Positions 401 through 7,588 of a stretch of 20,693 bases of DNA are shown here, piece by piece. The notes beneath the pieces were generated by a model that searched no databases, was not told the DNA's origin, and was given only the letters and a program-made list of their open reading frames with translations. The translations under genes and the position numbers were made by a program. Origin of the DNA: a virus; IMG/VR virus record IMGVR_UViG_3300020162_001799, positions 1 through 20,693 of that record; one strand, given 5' to 3'. The first letter of the stretch is position 1, and the number at the start of each line of letters is the position of its first letter.

Positions 401-1360
401 ATGAATTGGCTAAAAATTTTAGTGGGTTTTTCTGCAGTTATTATAGCAGGATGTGCTGCGTTCTTTTCCGTAACAGGATTGGGTGTTCTTTTTGCAGGGG
501 CATCTACTTCCGTTATGGTAATGGCGGGTTCATTAGAATTCGCTAAATTAGTAGCCGCAACCTACCTAAAACAGACTTGGGATGATATTAAGGGGTTTAA
601 TAAGTGGTATTTAACGATTTCGGTGGGCATCCTGATGATAATTACCTCAGCGGGTATATTTGGTTACCTTTCTAACGCATTCCAACAGCAATCCTTACAA
701 TTACAACAAGTGGATAGGGAAGTTGCGGTGTGGCAAACGAAAATAGACCAAAATAACACTCAAATTACCCAATTATCCACTCAAATTACCGAATCTAACA
801 CCAATCAAGGTAAAATATTGGATGGTGGGAAGGTAAATAGTAGATTACTTCGTTCTGTCGATAACAGAGATAGAGAAATCAGTAAATTAAATGATAAAAT
901 CGGTAAATTACAGACTGAAAACGCTAAAAATACCGAAGAAATCAACAAAATTAAGATTACTAACATCGATTTAGAGAAAGAAATAGGTGGATTCCGATTT
1001 GTAGCTGAAGCATTTGGTATAGAATTGAAAAATGTAGTAAAATTCTTCATATTTTTGATTGTGATAGTGTTTGACCCACTAGCAATCGCTCTTATTATCG
1101 CATTCAATGGATTGGTGATGAAAAGAGAGGAAGAAAAAGTACCTTCTATGTATGAAGTGTATGGAGAAAAACCAATATTAGCTTCTGAAAAGGATGCTGA
1201 GGTGTTTTTTAGTGAAATGGAGAATACTACCCCTCCAAATGAAGCTTTATTGGAAGCAAAAGAAAATTATGATGAAGTTTTTAAAAAAAAAGTTGAAATC
1301 ACTTCAACAAACTTGGAAGAAGTTGAATTGAGTGATGAACTTTTAAAAAAAAAGTCGTAG
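401..1360 (+). CDS. Multi-TM, coiled-coil phage membrane protein (zero-frame product)
   Basis: The 319-aa zero-frame product has a hydrophobic N-terminus (residues about 4-56, probably two membrane passes), a third segment at about 69-92 (WYLTISVGILMIITSAGIF), a long Q/N/K-rich coiled coil at about 95-200, a fourth hydrophobic segment at about 212-240 and an acidic cytosolic-type tail. Proteins with this N-terminal TM pair followed by a coiled coil occur as hypothetical proteins in marine T4-like phages; I know of no assigned function. The frame ends LLKKKS-stop immediately after nine A (1345-1353). A -1 shift at that run opens another 87 codons, so this may be the shorter of two products. 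It probably sits in the host inner membrane, but a role in lysis, superinfection exclusion or tail assembly cannot be chosen from sequence. Confidence 0.8.
   Translation: MNWLKILVGFSAVIIAGCAAFFSVTGLGVLFAGASTSVMVMAGSLEFAKLVAATYLKQTWDDIKGFNKWYLTISVGILMIITSAGIFGYLSNAFQQQSLQLQQVDREVAVWQTKIDQNNTQITQLSTQITESNTNQGKILDGGKVNSRLLRSVDNRDREISKLNDKIGKLQTENAKNTEEINKIKITNIDLEKEIGGFRFVAEAFGIELKNVVKFFIFLIVIVFDPLAIALIIAFNGLVMKREEEKVPSMYEVYGEKPILASEKDAEVFFSEMENTTPPNEALLEAKENYDEVFKKKVEITSTNLEEVELSDELLKKKS
1345..1354 (+). other. Candidate -1 ribosomal frameshift site (A AAA AAG)
   Basis: The zero frame reads CTT TTA AAA AAA AAG TCG TAG. It contains the heptamer A AAA AAG (1348-1354), the slippery sequence of E. 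coli dnaX. After a -1 slip the next codon is GTC at 1354 and the frame stays open to TAA 1615-1617. In the -1 frame the last upstream stop is TGA 1336-1338, so any slip must occur between 1339 and 1354, exactly over the A run. I see no clear stimulatory hairpin downstream. A purine stretch (GGAAGAAG, from 1315) lies about 25 nt upstream. A homopolymer sequencing error is the main alternative. Confidence 0.6.
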
Positions 1361-1617
1361 GAGAGGATGATGAATTACAAAATTTAGTTAGAGATACTGG
1401 TAAAAGAGGTATTGATTTAGATGGTGATGGTTCTATAGATGGATATGATACGAATGGAGATGGTATAATTGATAGATACACTTATGCTGGAGCTATAATG
1501 AATAAAGAAGGTAAGCTACCTTACTACGCTAGACCTGAGTTTGATTGGAGTGATAAATCACAATGGATTAATGACCAGAACGCGGTCAATTATTGGATAA
1601 CTTATAGAAAGTTTTAA
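1354..1617 (+). CDS. -1 frame C-terminal extension with EF-hand/dockerin-like loops
   Basis: This frame continues the membrane protein after a -1 slip and adds 87 residues, giving a product of about 405 aa. It contains two Asp-rich loops in tandem, DLDGDGSIDGY and DTNGDGIIDRY, spaced like Ca-binding loops of EF-hand, dockerin or thrombospondin type-3 repeats. An aromatic tail with several W and Y follows. There is no ATG, GTG or TTG in this frame before ATG 1498, which lies past both loops, so the Asp-rich part can be translated only by frameshifting. It is coding-like, with no stop for over 260 nt and a clear motif, so a real protein segment is likely. It may be a regulated extension or the true C-terminus separated by an A-run indel. 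Confidence 0.65.
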   Translation, partial: VVGEDDELQNLVRDTGKRGIDLDGDGSIDGYDTNGDGIIDRYTYAGAIMNKEGKLPYYARPEFDWSDKSQWINDQNAVNYWITYRKF

Positions 1618-1633
1618 ATTCTATCCTAATTTA

Positions 1634-1665
1634 TTTGTAAAATTGAAAAATTTTCGTTATTTTTG
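1634..1665 (+). promoter_or_regulatory. Bacteroidetes-type promoter P2 (TTTG-N20-TATTTTTG)
   Basis: TTTG at 1634-1637 and TATTTTTG at 1658-1665 fit -33 TTG and -7 TAnnTTTG with a 20-nt spacer. The spacer carries the same AATTGAAAAATT (1641-1652) at the same offset from the -7 box as in promoter P1. The expected start is near 1671, giving a leader of about 13 nt before ATG 1684. It would drive the run of genes from the deformylase-like protein through the late sigma factor and the carbamoyltransferase. Confidence 0.65.
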
Positions 1666-1683
1666 TATAATAACTAAAATAAT

Positions 1684-2235
1684 ATGAAATTAAAGAAAAT
1701 CGAATCAGTTCCATTCACTCTTCAAGATGAAGAGCTAATATTAAAAACACTTAAGCGATTTGCAAATAAGAATAATCTTTCTGCAGTTTGTACTAGAAGC
1801 GTTAACCTACCATTTAGAGCATTTTATCTCAATACAGAAAATCCACTTCTTTTAATTAATCCAGTTATATCAAACTATTCTAAAGAAGGATTCCAATCAA
1901 CTGAAACTTCTGAGTTTGATACAAACGGAAAATTTAGAATTGTAGTTAGAGCATTTTCAATAGATGTTCAGACCGATAATTTAGGATTGGTAAGATTTGA
2001 AGGTGATATGGAAGATAAGCAAACTGATTTAAACGAATGTATTTTTGCTCAACAAATGATTGACCTTTTAGATGGAATCACAGTTGCTGACAAGAATATA
2101 AATCAACCAGTTAAATCTACTATTCAATATGAAAGAAATCAATTAGTTATGGCTAAAGATGTTAATGGTAATATTGAACAAATAAAATATAAACATATAT
2201 CAAAGTATATGGAAAAGGGTTACGTTTTAATGTAA
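1684..2235 (+). CDS. Peptide-deformylase-like protein, catalytic residues lost
   Basis: The 183-aa protein follows the peptide deformylase fold plan. Residues 31-62 resemble the GLAANQ-to-LINP region, 67-72 (KEGFQS) the EGCLS motif, 85-101 the R-x-x-x-I-x-V-x-x-x-D-x-x-G strands, and 119-136 the long helix that normally carries Q-H-E-x-D-H. The active-site residues are absent: the Gln of GLAANQ aligns near C36, the metal-binding Cys is F70, and the HExDH positions read Q124-M-I-D-L128, so both His ligands and the catalytic Glu are missing. True deformylases remove the formyl group from nascent N-terminal Met and are common phage auxiliary genes. This one should not bind metal or deformylate. 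It may be a ribosome-tunnel or N-terminus binder, or a structural reuse of the fold. The fold call is by eye, and distant homology needs a profile search. Confidence 0.65.
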   Translation: MKLKKIESVPFTLQDEELILKTLKRFANKNNLSAVCTRSVNLPFRAFYLNTENPLLLINPVISNYSKEGFQSTETSEFDTNGKFRIVVRAFSIDVQTDNLGLVRFEGDMEDKQTDLNECIFAQQMIDLLDGITVADKNINQPVKSTIQYERNQLVMAKDVNGNIEQIKYKHISKYMEKGYVLM

Positions 2236-2757: not shown

Positions 2758-3477
2758 ATGCCAAGAAAACCAAAGACTCCTAAGAGTAAAATGTATTTCA
2801 CTATTGAAACAGAAGAAGCTATTATAGCATACAATAAATCTGATAATCAAAGAGAAAAAAACGTATTATATACGGAGAAGATTAAATATCCTTTTGAAAA
2901 GATAGCAGAGAATGTTTTAAATACTTATAAGTTTTCTTATTTTGATGATGGACCATCTGATGTTAAACGAGAAGTTGTATCACAGATGATTTATAAGATA
3001 CATATGTTTCAGGAGGGTAAAGGTAAAGCGTTCTCTTACTTTACTAGAATGGCTTTAAACCATTTAATACTTTTAAATAATTCAAACTACAAAAGGTACA
3101 AACAAAATGAATTGATGTCTGTAATGCCTGAAAGTTGGAATCCATCTGAGGATACATTGGCAATTGAAACGGATAGTACTCATGCTGAATTTAGAACAAT
3201 TATGTTATCATATTGGGATATAAAACTAAATGTGGTATTCGATAAAAAAAGAGATATACAAATTGCAGATGCTATATTAGAATTATTTAGGAGAGTTGAT
3301 TACATTGAGAATTTTAACAAAAAGAGTTTATACCTTTTAATAAGAGAAATGACAGGTCATAAAACTCATTACATAACAAAAGTGATTTCTACTATGAAAG
3401 TACATCAAGATAAAATCTTAGAAGAGTATTTGAACACAGGAGATATTACTATAGAAGAAGATATATTTTATAAATGA
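2758..3477 (+). CDS. 55: T4 gp55-like late-transcription sigma factor
   Basis: The 239-aa protein has a basic N-terminus (residues 1-11), a short helical segment and then a sigma-70 region 2-like core at about 43-115. That core holds a helix with K-I-A-E-N-V-L-N-x-Y, an acidic turn S-D-V-K-R-E, the I-x-K-I-H-x-F motif, and K-G-K-A-F-S-Y-F-T-R-M-A-L-N-H-L at 88-103. The last block is the gp55 signature (F-D...A-F/Y-x-Y-x-T-x-x-x-x-N). Region 4 is not evident, as in T4 gp55, which recognises only the -10-like late promoter and needs gp33 and the sliding clamp. The protein would redirect host RNA polymerase to late genes. It is longer than the T4 protein (185 aa), with a C-terminal extension from about 160. 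Its stop overlaps the next start by 4 nt (ATGA at 3474). Confidence 0.8.
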   Translation: MPRKPKTPKSKMYFTIETEEAIIAYNKSDNQREKNVLYTEKIKYPFEKIAENVLNTYKFSYFDDGPSDVKREVVSQMIYKIHMFQEGKGKAFSYFTRMALNHLILLNNSNYKRYKQNELMSVMPESWNPSEDTLAIETDSTHAEFRTIMLSYWDIKLNVVFDKKRDIQIADAILELFRRVDYIENFNKKSLYLLIREMTGHKTHYITKVISTMKVHQDKILEEYLNTGDITIEEDIFYK

Positions 3478-5162
3478 TACAAATAGGAATAAGTTGTTAT
3501 TATCATGATTCATCCGTATGTTTAATTAAGGATGGTAAGGTGATACTAGCAGTAGAGGAAGAAAGATTTAGTGGGATAAAGCATGATAGTTCATTCCCTG
3601 ATAATTCAATCAAATGGATAATGAAAGAATCTGGAATTGAATTTGAGCAAGTAAATGAGGTTTGTTTTTATGAGAAACCTTTAATTAAGACACATAGAGT
3701 TGTTACAACTTGTTTAAAGAATTTCCAAATTAAAGATGCATTTAAATTTTCGGCAAAAGGTATTAAACAATACACCGAATTGAAAAGTAAATTGAAATGG
3801 TTATTTTCTAAAGCAGAAATTAAATTCACATCACATCATGATTCTCACATTGGATATTCATATTTAACATCTCCATACAAAGAATCGGCGATATTAAGTA
3901 TTGATGGTGTTGGTGAATGGAATACGACAGTTTTAGCTCATGGAAAAGGAAATAGTTGGGAAACATTGGAGGCTACACAATTCCCACATTCGTTGGGAAT
4001 GTTATATTCCACTTTTACGGCATTCTTAGGATTCAAACCTAATGAAGGAGAATATAAAGTAATGGGATTAGCACCATATGGTAACCCAAAAACATTTTCA
4101 CATAAATTTAGAGAAATAATTTATCCTTCTAAGAAAGGTGGATACACTTTGAATATGGAAATGTTTGATTACCATAAGAGTGATGAAATTATGTTTACTT
4201 CTAAATTATCAGAACATTTAGGAATTCTACCCCGTTTACCGGAAGAAGAAATTACACAGGAACATAAAGATTTAGCTGCTACAATACAATTCATTTATGA
4301 AATGTATTTTTTTCGTTTATTAAAAGATTTACATCGTAGAACTAAATGTGATAATTTAGTTTTAGGAGGAGGATGTGCATACAACGGAACTGCTAATGGA
4401 AAAATTACAAAAAAGACAGGATTTAAGAATATTTGGATTCCATCTGCACCATCTGATGCGGGTTCTGCAATAGGAGCGTGTTTGATATCATATTATAATA
4501 CTACGATGCCTATTTATAGAATTGATAATACTAATCCTTATTTAGGTCCAGAATATTCAAACGATGTGATTAAAAAAGAATTACAGAATTATAATAAAAA
4601 ATTAATATATAATAAATTAGCAGATGATGAAATTATTACAGTCGTTGCTGGAGCAATATCAACAGGCAAAGTTGTTGCTTGGTTTGAAGGCAGAATGGAG
4701 TTGGGTGCTAGAGCCCTTGGCCATCGTTCTATTTTGGCTGACCCTACAAATGGGGAAATGAAATCTCTTATAAATAAAATTGTAAAGAAGAGAGAAGGAT
4801 TCAGACCTTTTGCGCCAATTGTAAAGTTGGGAGATGTTTCTACATATTTTGAATGGAATACATCGATACCTTATATGAATCAAATCGTTCCGGTTAGAAA
4901 GGAATTTAAGGATAAACTTCCTGCAATTACTCATGTAGATGGAACTGCACGAATTCAAACTTTAGAAAGAGACCAATGTGTTAGGATATATGATTTACTT
5001 ACGGAATTAGAGAAGCAAAATGAATACCCTATAGTTCTTAATACATCGTTTAATATTAAAGACCAAACGATGATTAGAGACCCTAAAACGGCAATCGATA
5101 CATTCTTAGAAATTGGATTGGATATGCTTGTATTAGAGAATTATGTTATAACTAAGAAATGA
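3474..5162 (+). CDS. NodU/CmcH/TobZ-family O-carbamoyltransferase
   Basis: The 562-aa protein is a full-length two-domain carbamoyltransferase that uses carbamoyl phosphate and ATP (via carbamoyl-adenylate) to carbamoylate a hydroxyl. The N-terminal Kae1-like domain starts GISCYYHDSSVCLI with E-E-E-R-F-S. It carries the metal-binding H-H-D-S-H (121-125), S-I-D-G-V-G-E (142-148) and L-G-G-G-C-A-x-N (297-304). The YrdC-like C-terminal domain holds F-E-G-R-M-E-L-G-A-R-A-L-G-H-R-S (404-419), R-P-F-A-P, and N-T-S-F-N (523-527). Signature residues look intact; one variation is GAR where many members have GPR. The acceptor could be a sugar on the virion or cell surface, or a modified nucleotide. It overlaps by 4 nt both the sigma factor upstream and the SGNH gene downstream, so all three are probably translationally coupled. 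Confidence 0.9.
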   Translation: MIQIGISCYYHDSSVCLIKDGKVILAVEEERFSGIKHDSSFPDNSIKWIMKESGIEFEQVNEVCFYEKPLIKTHRVVTTCLKNFQIKDAFKFSAKGIKQYTELKSKLKWLFSKAEIKFTSHHDSHIGYSYLTSPYKESAILSIDGVGEWNTTVLAHGKGNSWETLEATQFPHSLGMLYSTFTAFLGFKPNEGEYKVMGLAPYGNPKTFSHKFREIIYPSKKGGYTLNMEMFDYHKSDEIMFTSKLSEHLGILPRLPEEEITQEHKDLAATIQFIYEMYFFRLLKDLHRRTKCDNLVLGGGCAYNGTANGKITKKTGFKNIWIPSAPSDAGSAIGACLISYYNTTMPIYRIDNTNPYLGPEYSNDVIKKELQNYNKKLIYNKLADDEIITVVAGAISTGKVVAWFEGRMELGARALGHRSILADPTNGEMKSLINKIVKKREGFRPFAPIVKLGDVSTYFEWNTSIPYMNQIVPVRKEFKDKLPAITHVDGTARIQTLERDQCVRIYDLLTELEKQNEYPIVLNTSFNIKDQTMIRDPKTAIDTFLEIGLDMLVLENYVITKK

Positions 5163-5941
5163 AACGAATAGTTGCATACGGAGATAGTTGGACAATTGGA
5201 GAGGGCTGTAATCGAGAAATTGAGGATACTCTCTCTAAACACGAAAAAGTAATATACCAAAAAGAAAATAGCTGGGTTAGAATGTTAGGTGATAAACTTA
5301 ATCTTCCAATTGAAAATAATGGTATAAGTGGAAACCCTAATAACAAAATATTTAATCAAATTGTAGATGATATCAAAAATGGTGTCACTACAAAGCATGA
5401 TTTAGTAGTGGTTATGTGGAGTTCATCCTTAAGAGATTATTTACCTTTTCTTCCCCATGGGCCTAAAGGAGAGTGGTTAAGTTGGAGTACAAAACACCTG
5501 ATGGAAACTCCGGATAGATTCTTTACATCAACCCAAACAGAGAACCGATATTACGATTTCTTTATGGAAGATTATAAGAAATTCTTTTTAGTTAATATGC
5601 ACTCTGATTTATATTACTCCATTATAAACCAAAACTATGTTATATTTCTCCAAAACTTTTTTAAACATTATAAGATACAATATGTAATGTGTGATGGAAT
5701 TGAGGATATGTTTATGGGAATTGAACCCATATATGATAAAACTGATTTAATAGAAACGGAAACATATTGGCAGTATAGAAAAAAGACTATTAGGGATTGG
5801 TTGATAGAGTTTAATGATACATCGATGTGGGAGCATAAAGAAAGATGGGACACTAGAGGAACACAGCATCCTAACATAAAGGGATATGAACTTATAGCAG
5901 AAGAATTGGGCAAGTTTATAGATTCACAAAAAATTATTTAA
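5159..5941 (+). CDS. SGNH/GDSL-hydrolase-like protein
   Basis: The 260-aa protein begins IVAYGDSW, the SGNH block I with nucleophile S10. It continues with block II-like N-G-I-S-G-N (54-59, oxyanion Gly58). A hydrophobic strand DLVVVMWSSS (81-90) stands where block III G-x-N-D is expected, but the Asn is not in place. It ends with a block V-like D231...H237-P-N-I-K-G-Y. The Asp lies six residues before His instead of the usual three, so triad geometry is uncertain. Members act as esterases, acetyl or acyl transferases, or deacetylases on carbohydrates. Such proteins are frequent in marine T4-like phages with unknown substrates. Its ATGA overlap with the carbamoyltransferase suggests both act on one glycan or nucleotide-sugar substrate. 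There is no signal peptide, so it is cytoplasmic or virion-borne. Confidence 0.7.
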   Translation: MKRIVAYGDSWTIGEGCNREIEDTLSKHEKVIYQKENSWVRMLGDKLNLPIENNGISGNPNNKIFNQIVDDIKNGVTTKHDLVVVMWSSSLRDYLPFLPHGPKGEWLSWSTKHLMETPDRFFTSTQTENRYYDFFMEDYKKFFLVNMHSDLYYSIINQNYVIFLQNFFKHYKIQYVMCDGIEDMFMGIEPIYDKTDLIETETYWQYRKKTIRDWLIEFNDTSMWEHKERWDTRGTQHPNIKGYELIAEELGKFIDSQKII

Positions 5942-6389: not shown

Positions 6390-7588
6390 TGGCAAACGGA
6401 GAACATTTAAATAATGTCGGTTCGTATAATGTTACTACCCCTAGTAATAAACCAAAGGGTAATAATGAAGCATATACCGCTCAAGTTACCGAAGTATTTT
6501 TAAAATTTGAAAAAGATGATGATGGTAAGCAAATACTTCCTGGAACAATAAGAGTTGAGGGAGCTGGTACAGGTAGAAGTATAGAAACACTTATCCGACC
6601 AATGGATGACCACTTTCATGGGATACCTGTGATAAATGAATTAGTAGAAATTGTTACTAGTTCAGGTATTAAATACTACAGACGATTCAATGTTAATAGT
6701 AATATATTTTCCACTACAGATGATGAAACTGAAGCAGGTAAAAACAAAAACGCTGAGCCAGTTAAACCTAGTTCTGATTTAAAAGATTTTAAAACAGATT
6801 TCCAACAAACTAATTCCGGTAAAGATACTAAGAAGAAATTAGGGGAATATTTTAAAATAGGTAAGAGTAGAAGACTTAAGTTATATGAGGGAGACCATAT
6901 ACTTCAGAGTAGATTTGGACAATCACTTAGATTTAGTGGGTTTAATAATGATAAGAAAAGTATAAGCCCTACACTTATAATCCGAAATGGAGAATCACCA
7001 TCTAATGCATCTATTCCAATTGATAAAGAAATTGAGGAGGATATCAATACAGATGGTTCTACTATAGCTATGACAAGTGGAGATTATATATCTAAATTCA
7101 CACCATCATATATAACTAATAAGAAAGAAGCATTAGAATCATATCCTTCCGAATTAAAGGGGCATCAGATTATAATCACATCCGAAAGATTAATTTTTTC
7201 TACTAGAACTGCTGAAACTATATTTTTTTCCAAAGGTAATTATGCTATAATAACCGATGGAGTTTATTCGGTGGATACTAATTTAGGGGTAACAATTGAA
7301 TCAAAAGGAGATATTGATATATCATCAGTTGGTAAAACAACTACATTTTACATAGGAGATGGTGGGAATATCAACTTAGGAGATAAAAATGTTCAACCTG
7401 CTGTATTAGGTACTACATTAGAGAATATTTTAAATGAAATAATAACTGAAATTATAAATCTCCAAGCAGGAGGATTATTAACACCAGCTGGACCTACAAG
7501 TGGAATGAATCCTGCAAACTTAAGTGCTTTGCAATCAATCCAACGAAAACTTGTAACTATGAAATCAAAGCGAGTAAACTTAGGATAA
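6389..7588 (+). CDS. 5: gp5-like baseplate central spike/hub protein without lysozyme
   Basis: In this 399-aa protein an OB-fold is placed at about 28-112 (Y-T-A-Q-V-T-E-V-F-L-K, G-T-I-R-V-E-G, G-I-P-V-I-N-E-L-V-E-I-V). A segment at about 165-205 (L-x-E-G-D-H-I-L-Q-S-R-F-G-Q-S-L-R-F-S and S-P-T-L-I-I-R-N-G) is typical of gp5 hub proteins of marine T4-like phages. The C-terminal third has short beta repeats ending I-N-L-G-D-K-N-V-Q-P-A-V-L-G, as at the base of the trimeric spike, and a helical tail. In T4, gp5 forms the membrane-piercing spike and carries an internal lysozyme domain. No lysozyme-like stretch fits here between OB-fold and spike, so wall digestion must come from elsewhere, most obviously the peptidase domain of the next gene, which starts 1 nt later. 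Confidence 0.8.
   Translation: MANGEHLNNVGSYNVTTPSNKPKGNNEAYTAQVTEVFLKFEKDDDGKQILPGTIRVEGAGTGRSIETLIRPMDDHFHGIPVINELVEIVTSSGIKYYRRFNVNSNIFSTTDDETEAGKNKNAEPVKPSSDLKDFKTDFQQTNSGKDTKKKLGEYFKIGKSRRLKLYEGDHILQSRFGQSLRFSGFNNDKKSISPTLIIRNGESPSNASIPIDKEIEEDINTDGSTIAMTSGDYISKFTPSYITNKKEALESYPSELKGHQIIITSERLIFSTRTAETIFFSKGNYAIITDGVYSVDTNLGVTIESKGDIDISSVGKTTTFYIGDGGNINLGDKNVQPAVLGTTLENILNEIITEIINLQAGGLLTPAGPTSGMNPANLSALQSIQRKLVTMKSKRVNLG

Follow-up and report, generated by a model that had tools for sequence, protein, structure and literature searches.

Results and discussion

Organization of the locus

The window, that is the whole stretch of 20,693 nt of viral DNA that was analysed, carries near its start an ORF encoding a 319-aa protein (Table 1). 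Its last codons read TTA AAA AAA AAG TCG TAG. The preliminary description had placed the zero-frame stop right after a run containing the slippery heptamer A_AAA_AAG, and both the coordinates and the phase of these elements were confirmed. The heptamer is in the correct zero-frame phase and overlaps a second one, A_AAA_AAA, which occurs in phase in any A9 run. The -1 frame is open across the tract, as described before, and its first ATG, GTG or TTG codon is the ATG at position 1498. A -1 slip at this site would give a product of 318 + 87 = 405 aa instead of 319 aa, in agreement with the size proposed earlier. The residues downstream of the slip would be VVGEDDELQNLVRDTGKRGIDLDGDGSIDGYDTNGDGIIDRYT...WINDQNAVNYWITYRKF, and the tryptic peptides predicted directly after it are VVGEDDELQNLVR.

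A further A9 tract, absent from the preliminary description, is present upstream in the same gene. A -1 slip at this tract leads to AGT TGA, with the stop at 1294-1296, and could only shorten the product; the tract is of the same type as those in the tract-bearing in-frame homologues described below.

Table 1. Coordinates of the features of the window
Feature	Position	Strand	Remarks
Zero-frame ORF	401-1360	+	319 aa, short product; ends ..DELLKKKS*
Upstream A9 tract	1283-1291	+	same gene; TTT AAA AAA AAA GTT GAA
-1 open frame	1339-1617	+	stop TAA 1615-1617 included
TTTT	1341-1344		slip-site layout
Invariant 14-mer TTAAAAAAAAAGTC	1343-1356	+	contains the slip tract
Slip tract A9	1345-1353		slip-site layout
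Heptamer A_AAA_AAA	1345-1351		overlaps A_AAA_AAG
Heptamer A_AAA_AAG	1348-1354		zero-frame phase
G	1354		slip-site layout
TCG	1355-1357		slip-site layout
Zero-frame stop TAG	1358-1360	+	one codon past the slip tract
Conserved C-terminal domain	1405-1614	+	acidic DxDGDGxxDGxDxNGDGxxD segment and PYYAxPxFDW...WINDQNAVNYW motif
TTTG-N20-TAnnTTTG	1634-1665		Bacteroidota promoter form
Next gene	1684-2235		weak polypeptide deformylase match (PF01327)
Carbamoyltransferase gene	3474-5162		PF02543/PF16861
Weak GDSL match	5159-5941		adjoins the carbamoyltransferase gene

Conservation of the slip site

IMG/VR was searched separately with the extension and with the core of the protein. The same arrangement, comprising a zero-frame stop soon past the tract and the C-terminal domain in the -1 frame, was found in 31 contigs, giving with the window a group of 32 (about 20 distinct sequences of 52-100 % identity), referred to below as class 1. 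Conservation of the arrangement in so many contigs exceeds chance and supports the earlier proposal that a phage membrane protein is extended by a programmed change to the -1 frame. Neither of the observations named beforehand as refuting it, a different A count or homologues lacking the -1 continuation, was encountered in this group.

The alignment of the site in 19 distinct sequences revealed 14 invariant bases, TTAAAAAAAAAGTC, surrounded by flanks that vary even at the amino-acid level. The tract comprised exactly nine A residues in 32 of the 32 class-1 contigs, many of them near-identical and derived from different samples. The conserved block exceeds the heptamer, since the A9 length and the preceding TT are also kept. 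Invariance of the 14-mer was unexpected because two of the codons involved are infrequent in these phages: GTC accounts for 1.6-2 % of Val codons and AAG for 18-24 % of Lys codons. The TC following AAAG (1355-1356 in the window) is likewise invariant in the homologues, though GTC is such a rare Val codon.

Coding status of the -1 frame

In pairwise comparisons of the region downstream of the site pN was 0.01-0.25 versus pS of 0.08-0.56, and the substitutions clustered at codon position three when read in the -1 frame. This pattern indicates that the -1 frame is under purifying selection. No conserved start codon was found in the -1 frame among the class-1 members, two of which (L020 and L034) are devoid of any start codon in the entire -1 frame, and the conserved domain begins upstream of the ATG at 1498. 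The preliminary description had suggested comparing homologues for A AAA AAG with an early stop as opposed to a fused frame: the -1 continuation was present in class 1, and in other homologues the core and the domain are encoded in a single uninterrupted frame. The coding constraint, the lack of conserved start codons and the uninterrupted fusions together imply that the fusion is a functional protein, reachable here only by a change of frame.

The membrane core and the C-terminal domain

The 319-aa protein was found by reading to contain hydrophobic segments near residues 5-50, 68-92 and 213-240, with a K/R-rich stretch past the last of them. A long helix or coiled coil at about residues 93-200 is followed by a low-confidence acidic linker that extends to the C-terminus, a reading based in part on the poor, low-confidence full-length model of homologue L045 (pLDDT 64.7). 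The hydrophobic segments, the coiled coil and the K/R-rich stretch suggest a multi-pass membrane protein with its tail in the cytoplasm.

The C-terminal domain has 23 invariant columns among 40 sequences and, when modelled alone, gave a confident fold (pLDDT 88.9). Searches of Pfam, PHROG and PDB as well as fold searches with this domain returned no significant match. The acidic segment has loops resembling those of an EF-hand or dockerin calcium-binding domain, but the EF-hand_5/dockerin matches were sub-threshold and were not accompanied by a fold match. An Rz-like spanin in PHROG (E about 1e-3) and DivIC in Pfam were also discarded, both matches being restricted to the coiled coil.

In INPHARED distant cores only were detected, in phages of Flavobacterium, Pelagibacter, Stenotrophomonas and Microcystis, and the C-terminal domain had no match among INPHARED phages. 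In the Flavobacterium and Pelagibacter phages, whose core proteins are devoid of the domain, the core gene has holin/chitinase or glucosaminidase genes in its neighbourhood. The scan of bacterial genomes gave a single partial match (52 % over 41 residues). That the protein takes part in lysis, or acts in the envelope of the infected cell, is a guess only. Literature searches of open-access papers found no description of the family.

Other tracts and frame-switch classes in the family

An A9 or A10 tract is present in the linker of 27 of the 65 distinct in-frame homologues. A -1 slip at these tracts leads to a stop within three codons in all 27, in comparison to 33-34 % after A6/A7 runs of other genes. 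The number of tracts, 27 versus 22.8 expected from codon usage, is slightly above expectation. The pattern is suggestive but does not amount to a clean test, because the sequences are related and the tract count is near expectation.

Three further frame-switch classes, with A10 or A11 tracts, were recognized in the same protein family, and two of them lead to a different C-terminal domain. L307 has an A10 tract (GTA AAA AAA AAA TTG) with a domain of the DGDG/INDQNAVNYW type in the -1 frame. In L277-L280 an A11 tract precedes an unrelated conserved domain, LYWEKDDxNPNQxxYDL, also in the -1 frame, and the same domain follows an A10 tract in the -1 frame of L274, L296, L301 and their relatives. 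Frame-switch classes with this domain were seen at L274 (6402-6652), L277-L280, L296, L301 and L320-L328; matches to a YWEKDD-type domain also occurred on contigs with no detectable core gene (L311-L317, L325 and L327).

Several members differ in how the domain is reached. In L284 and L303 the LYWEKDDxNPNQxxYDL domain is in frame and the A10 tract is still kept, and L090 has A10 in frame at the equivalent site. L276 (tract at 6429) carries A10 with the domain in the +1 frame, whereas the near-identical L277 and L278 carry A11 with the domain in the -1 frame. Across the members the domain is either in the -1 frame or in frame, L276 being the only case of +1.

The frameshifted members are scattered in the core tree and require 7 changes (9 when more classes are included), versus 4 changes in the tree of the C-terminal domain, which is based on few columns and has many unresolved forks. 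The simplest reading of the two trees would be that the slip site and the domain move together via recombination. It may be, although we propose it tentatively, that this membrane-protein family of large phages is built round a persistent poly-A recoding tract, with the downstream domain (DGDG/INDQNAVNYW or YWEKDDxNPNQ type) being swapped and the long form encoded in the zero frame, the -1 frame or, once, the +1 frame. Whichever frame encodes the long form, slippage of the host polymerase would give rise to the two lengths, and their ratio would be set by the length of the tract and the arrangement.

Mechanism of the frame change

We lean towards the A9 tract at 1345-1353 being a programmed recoding site at which transcriptional slippage is the likeliest step, with or without ribosomal slippage. 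Most of the mRNA, or of its translation, would yield the 319-aa membrane protein, and in a fraction a -1 shift at the tract would give the 405-aa form with the added C-terminal domain. RNA polymerase would insert one A, and the resulting A10 mRNA would be read straight through as TTA AAA AAA AAA GTC. Polymerase slippage may be supplemented or replaced by a -1 slip of the ribosome on A_AAA_AAA and A_AAA_AAG, which overlap, and the two processes can operate together. Comparison of the homologues establishes the conservation of the tract, the coding conservation of the -1 frame, the lack of alternative starts and the recurrence of the arrangement in the family. We infer that the phage produces and requires the short as well as the long form and that RNA polymerase is the main agent.

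The occurrence of A runs was analysed in 341 other non-redundant ORFs of these loci, in relation to synonymous shuffling. Runs of at least nine A were found 8 times versus 31 expected (in mid-gene 2 versus 16), and A10 and A11 runs were absent. Exact A7 runs were at expectation in all three phases (78 versus 80 for the A_AAA_AAA phase), and A_AAA_AAG was not significantly avoided (28 versus 35 expected). These genomes thus tolerate ribosomal heptamers but avoid runs of at least nine A, which would be explained by slippage of the polymerase (RNA) or by indel mutation of the DNA, an interpretation also given for the phase-independent avoidance of A7/T7 in E. coli (PMC4066793).

Besides this avoidance, the A10/A11 classes with their varied heptamers, the L276/L277 pair, the lack of a downstream RNA structure in simple folding and the tssM precedent described below point to polymerase slippage. 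The arguments against it are the ideal phase of A_AAA_AAG and the near-uniform direction of the shift; according to Antonov et al. (PMC3711429), a conserved direction is a sign of ribosomal frameshifting and a non-conserved one is a criterion of transcriptional slippage. In addition, the avoidance of long A runs could stem from DNA indel mutation, and the invariant TC after the tract is unaccounted for by the preferred explanation.

Programmed -1 ribosomal frameshifting of the dnaX/IS3 type on A_AAA_AAG, maybe aided by A_AAA_AAA and acting without a strong stimulator, is a less likely alternative. It accords with the in-phase heptamer of every class-1 member, with the direction of the shift, which is -1 in almost every frame-switched member, and with the invariance of AAG in spite of its infrequent use; A_AAA_AAG is also among the heptamers most prone to shift in E. 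coli (PMC4066793). However, simple, pseudoknot-free folding of 16 sequences revealed no downstream stem-loop (mean z about 0), and by inspection no consistent upstream SD-like stimulator (AGGAG/GGAG, 6-17 nt before the site) was visible. The conservation of A9 and the preceding TT reaches beyond the heptamer, the other frame-switch classes have A_AAA_AAA in place of A_AAA_AAG, and other genes tolerate heptamers but not runs of at least nine A. The data thus do not establish the dnaX-type ribosomal slip put forward in the preliminary description, and transcriptional slippage is at least equally probable.

A contingency (phase-variable) locus, in which DNA replication slippage would toggle the C-terminal domain in the population with A9 as the off state, could be reconciled with the natural length variants (A10 in frame in L090, one A of difference between L276 and L277) and with the avoidance of long A runs in other genes. 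It is nevertheless improbable: the uniform A9 of the class-1 contigs, including the near-identical ones from different samples, and the purifying selection on the -1 frame make a fixed off state implausible. Even less can be said for the view that the two frames are distinct genes or that the C-terminus has decayed, with the -1 frame internally initiated or untranslated. The overlapping frames and the ATG at 1498 would fit such an arrangement, but the start is not conserved and is missing from L020 and L034, the domain begins before it, the -1 frame is under purifying selection and fused homologues exist, so that this very unlikely reading was ruled out. A miscounted A in the nine-A run, raised in the preliminary description since a single additional A would make the frame continuous, has virtually no probability and was ruled out by the comparative data: A9 is shared by 32 contigs, although their identity falls to 52 % and synonymous changes are numerous, and L003, which is almost identical to the window, has it too.

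Comparison with known systems

In E. coli dnaX the ribosome slips on A_AAA_AAG with the help of an upstream SD and a downstream stem-loop, and the shifted product is short. The phage gene resembles dnaX in having A_AAA_AAG inside an A tract and two predicted products per gene. In contrast to E. coli, the shifted product is the long one and SD or stem-loop stimulators were not found at the phage site. The A9 length is that of Thermus thermophilus dnaX, in which transcriptional slippage takes place on A9 (PMC3711429).

The closest experimental precedent seems to be provided by tssM1 of Citrobacter rodentium and tssM3 of Yersinia pseudotuberculosis, inner-membrane proteins for which production of two lengths via poly-A transcriptional slippage was experimentally established; slippage leads to the long form in tssM1 and to the short form in tssM3, and both lengths of TssM1 as well as their ratio are required (PMC4256274). 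As far as the sequence can tell, the phage family resembles these genes, with no homology being claimed: a membrane protein is encoded, a long A tract lies near an early stop, short and long forms are predicted, and both mirror arrangements are found in the family. The differences are that the protein is unrelated, that tssM1 has A11 versus the phage A9, that slippage was proven there and is inferred here, and that conservation of the phage tract extends over a large family of phage genes.

Phage tail assembly chaperones (lambda G/GT and relatives) also have a -1 shift that extends a phage protein C-terminally, but the gene described here encodes a membrane protein and has a poly-A tract and uninterrupted-fusion homologues. 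IS transposase genes with poly-A transcriptional realignment share the A-tract frame change and a direction that is not kept in every relative, L276 being the one departure in the phage family; the phage gene, however, is no transposase and differs in stop context and domain architecture.

Significance and neighbouring genes

The conserved frame switch appears to act as a gene-expression switch by which a fraction of the product gains the C-terminal domain. Gene callers would cut the gene short in every such phage. The family is a new, well-replicated set of frame-switch genes distinct from tail chaperones and transposases, and its A9, A10 and A11 tracts, in shift-to-long and shift-to-short arrangements, form a natural series for gauging slippage of the host on A tracts. 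It also raises the question of what makes a second length of the same membrane protein necessary to a phage.

The hosts are probably Bacteroidota. A sequence of the Bacteroidota promoter form, TTTG-N20-TAnnTTTG, is present just before the next gene, which itself shows a weak match to polypeptide deformylase; the window contains three such sequences versus 0.85 expected, a number not significant alone. Further downstream the window encodes a phage-borne carbamoyltransferase, adjoined by a weak GDSL match.
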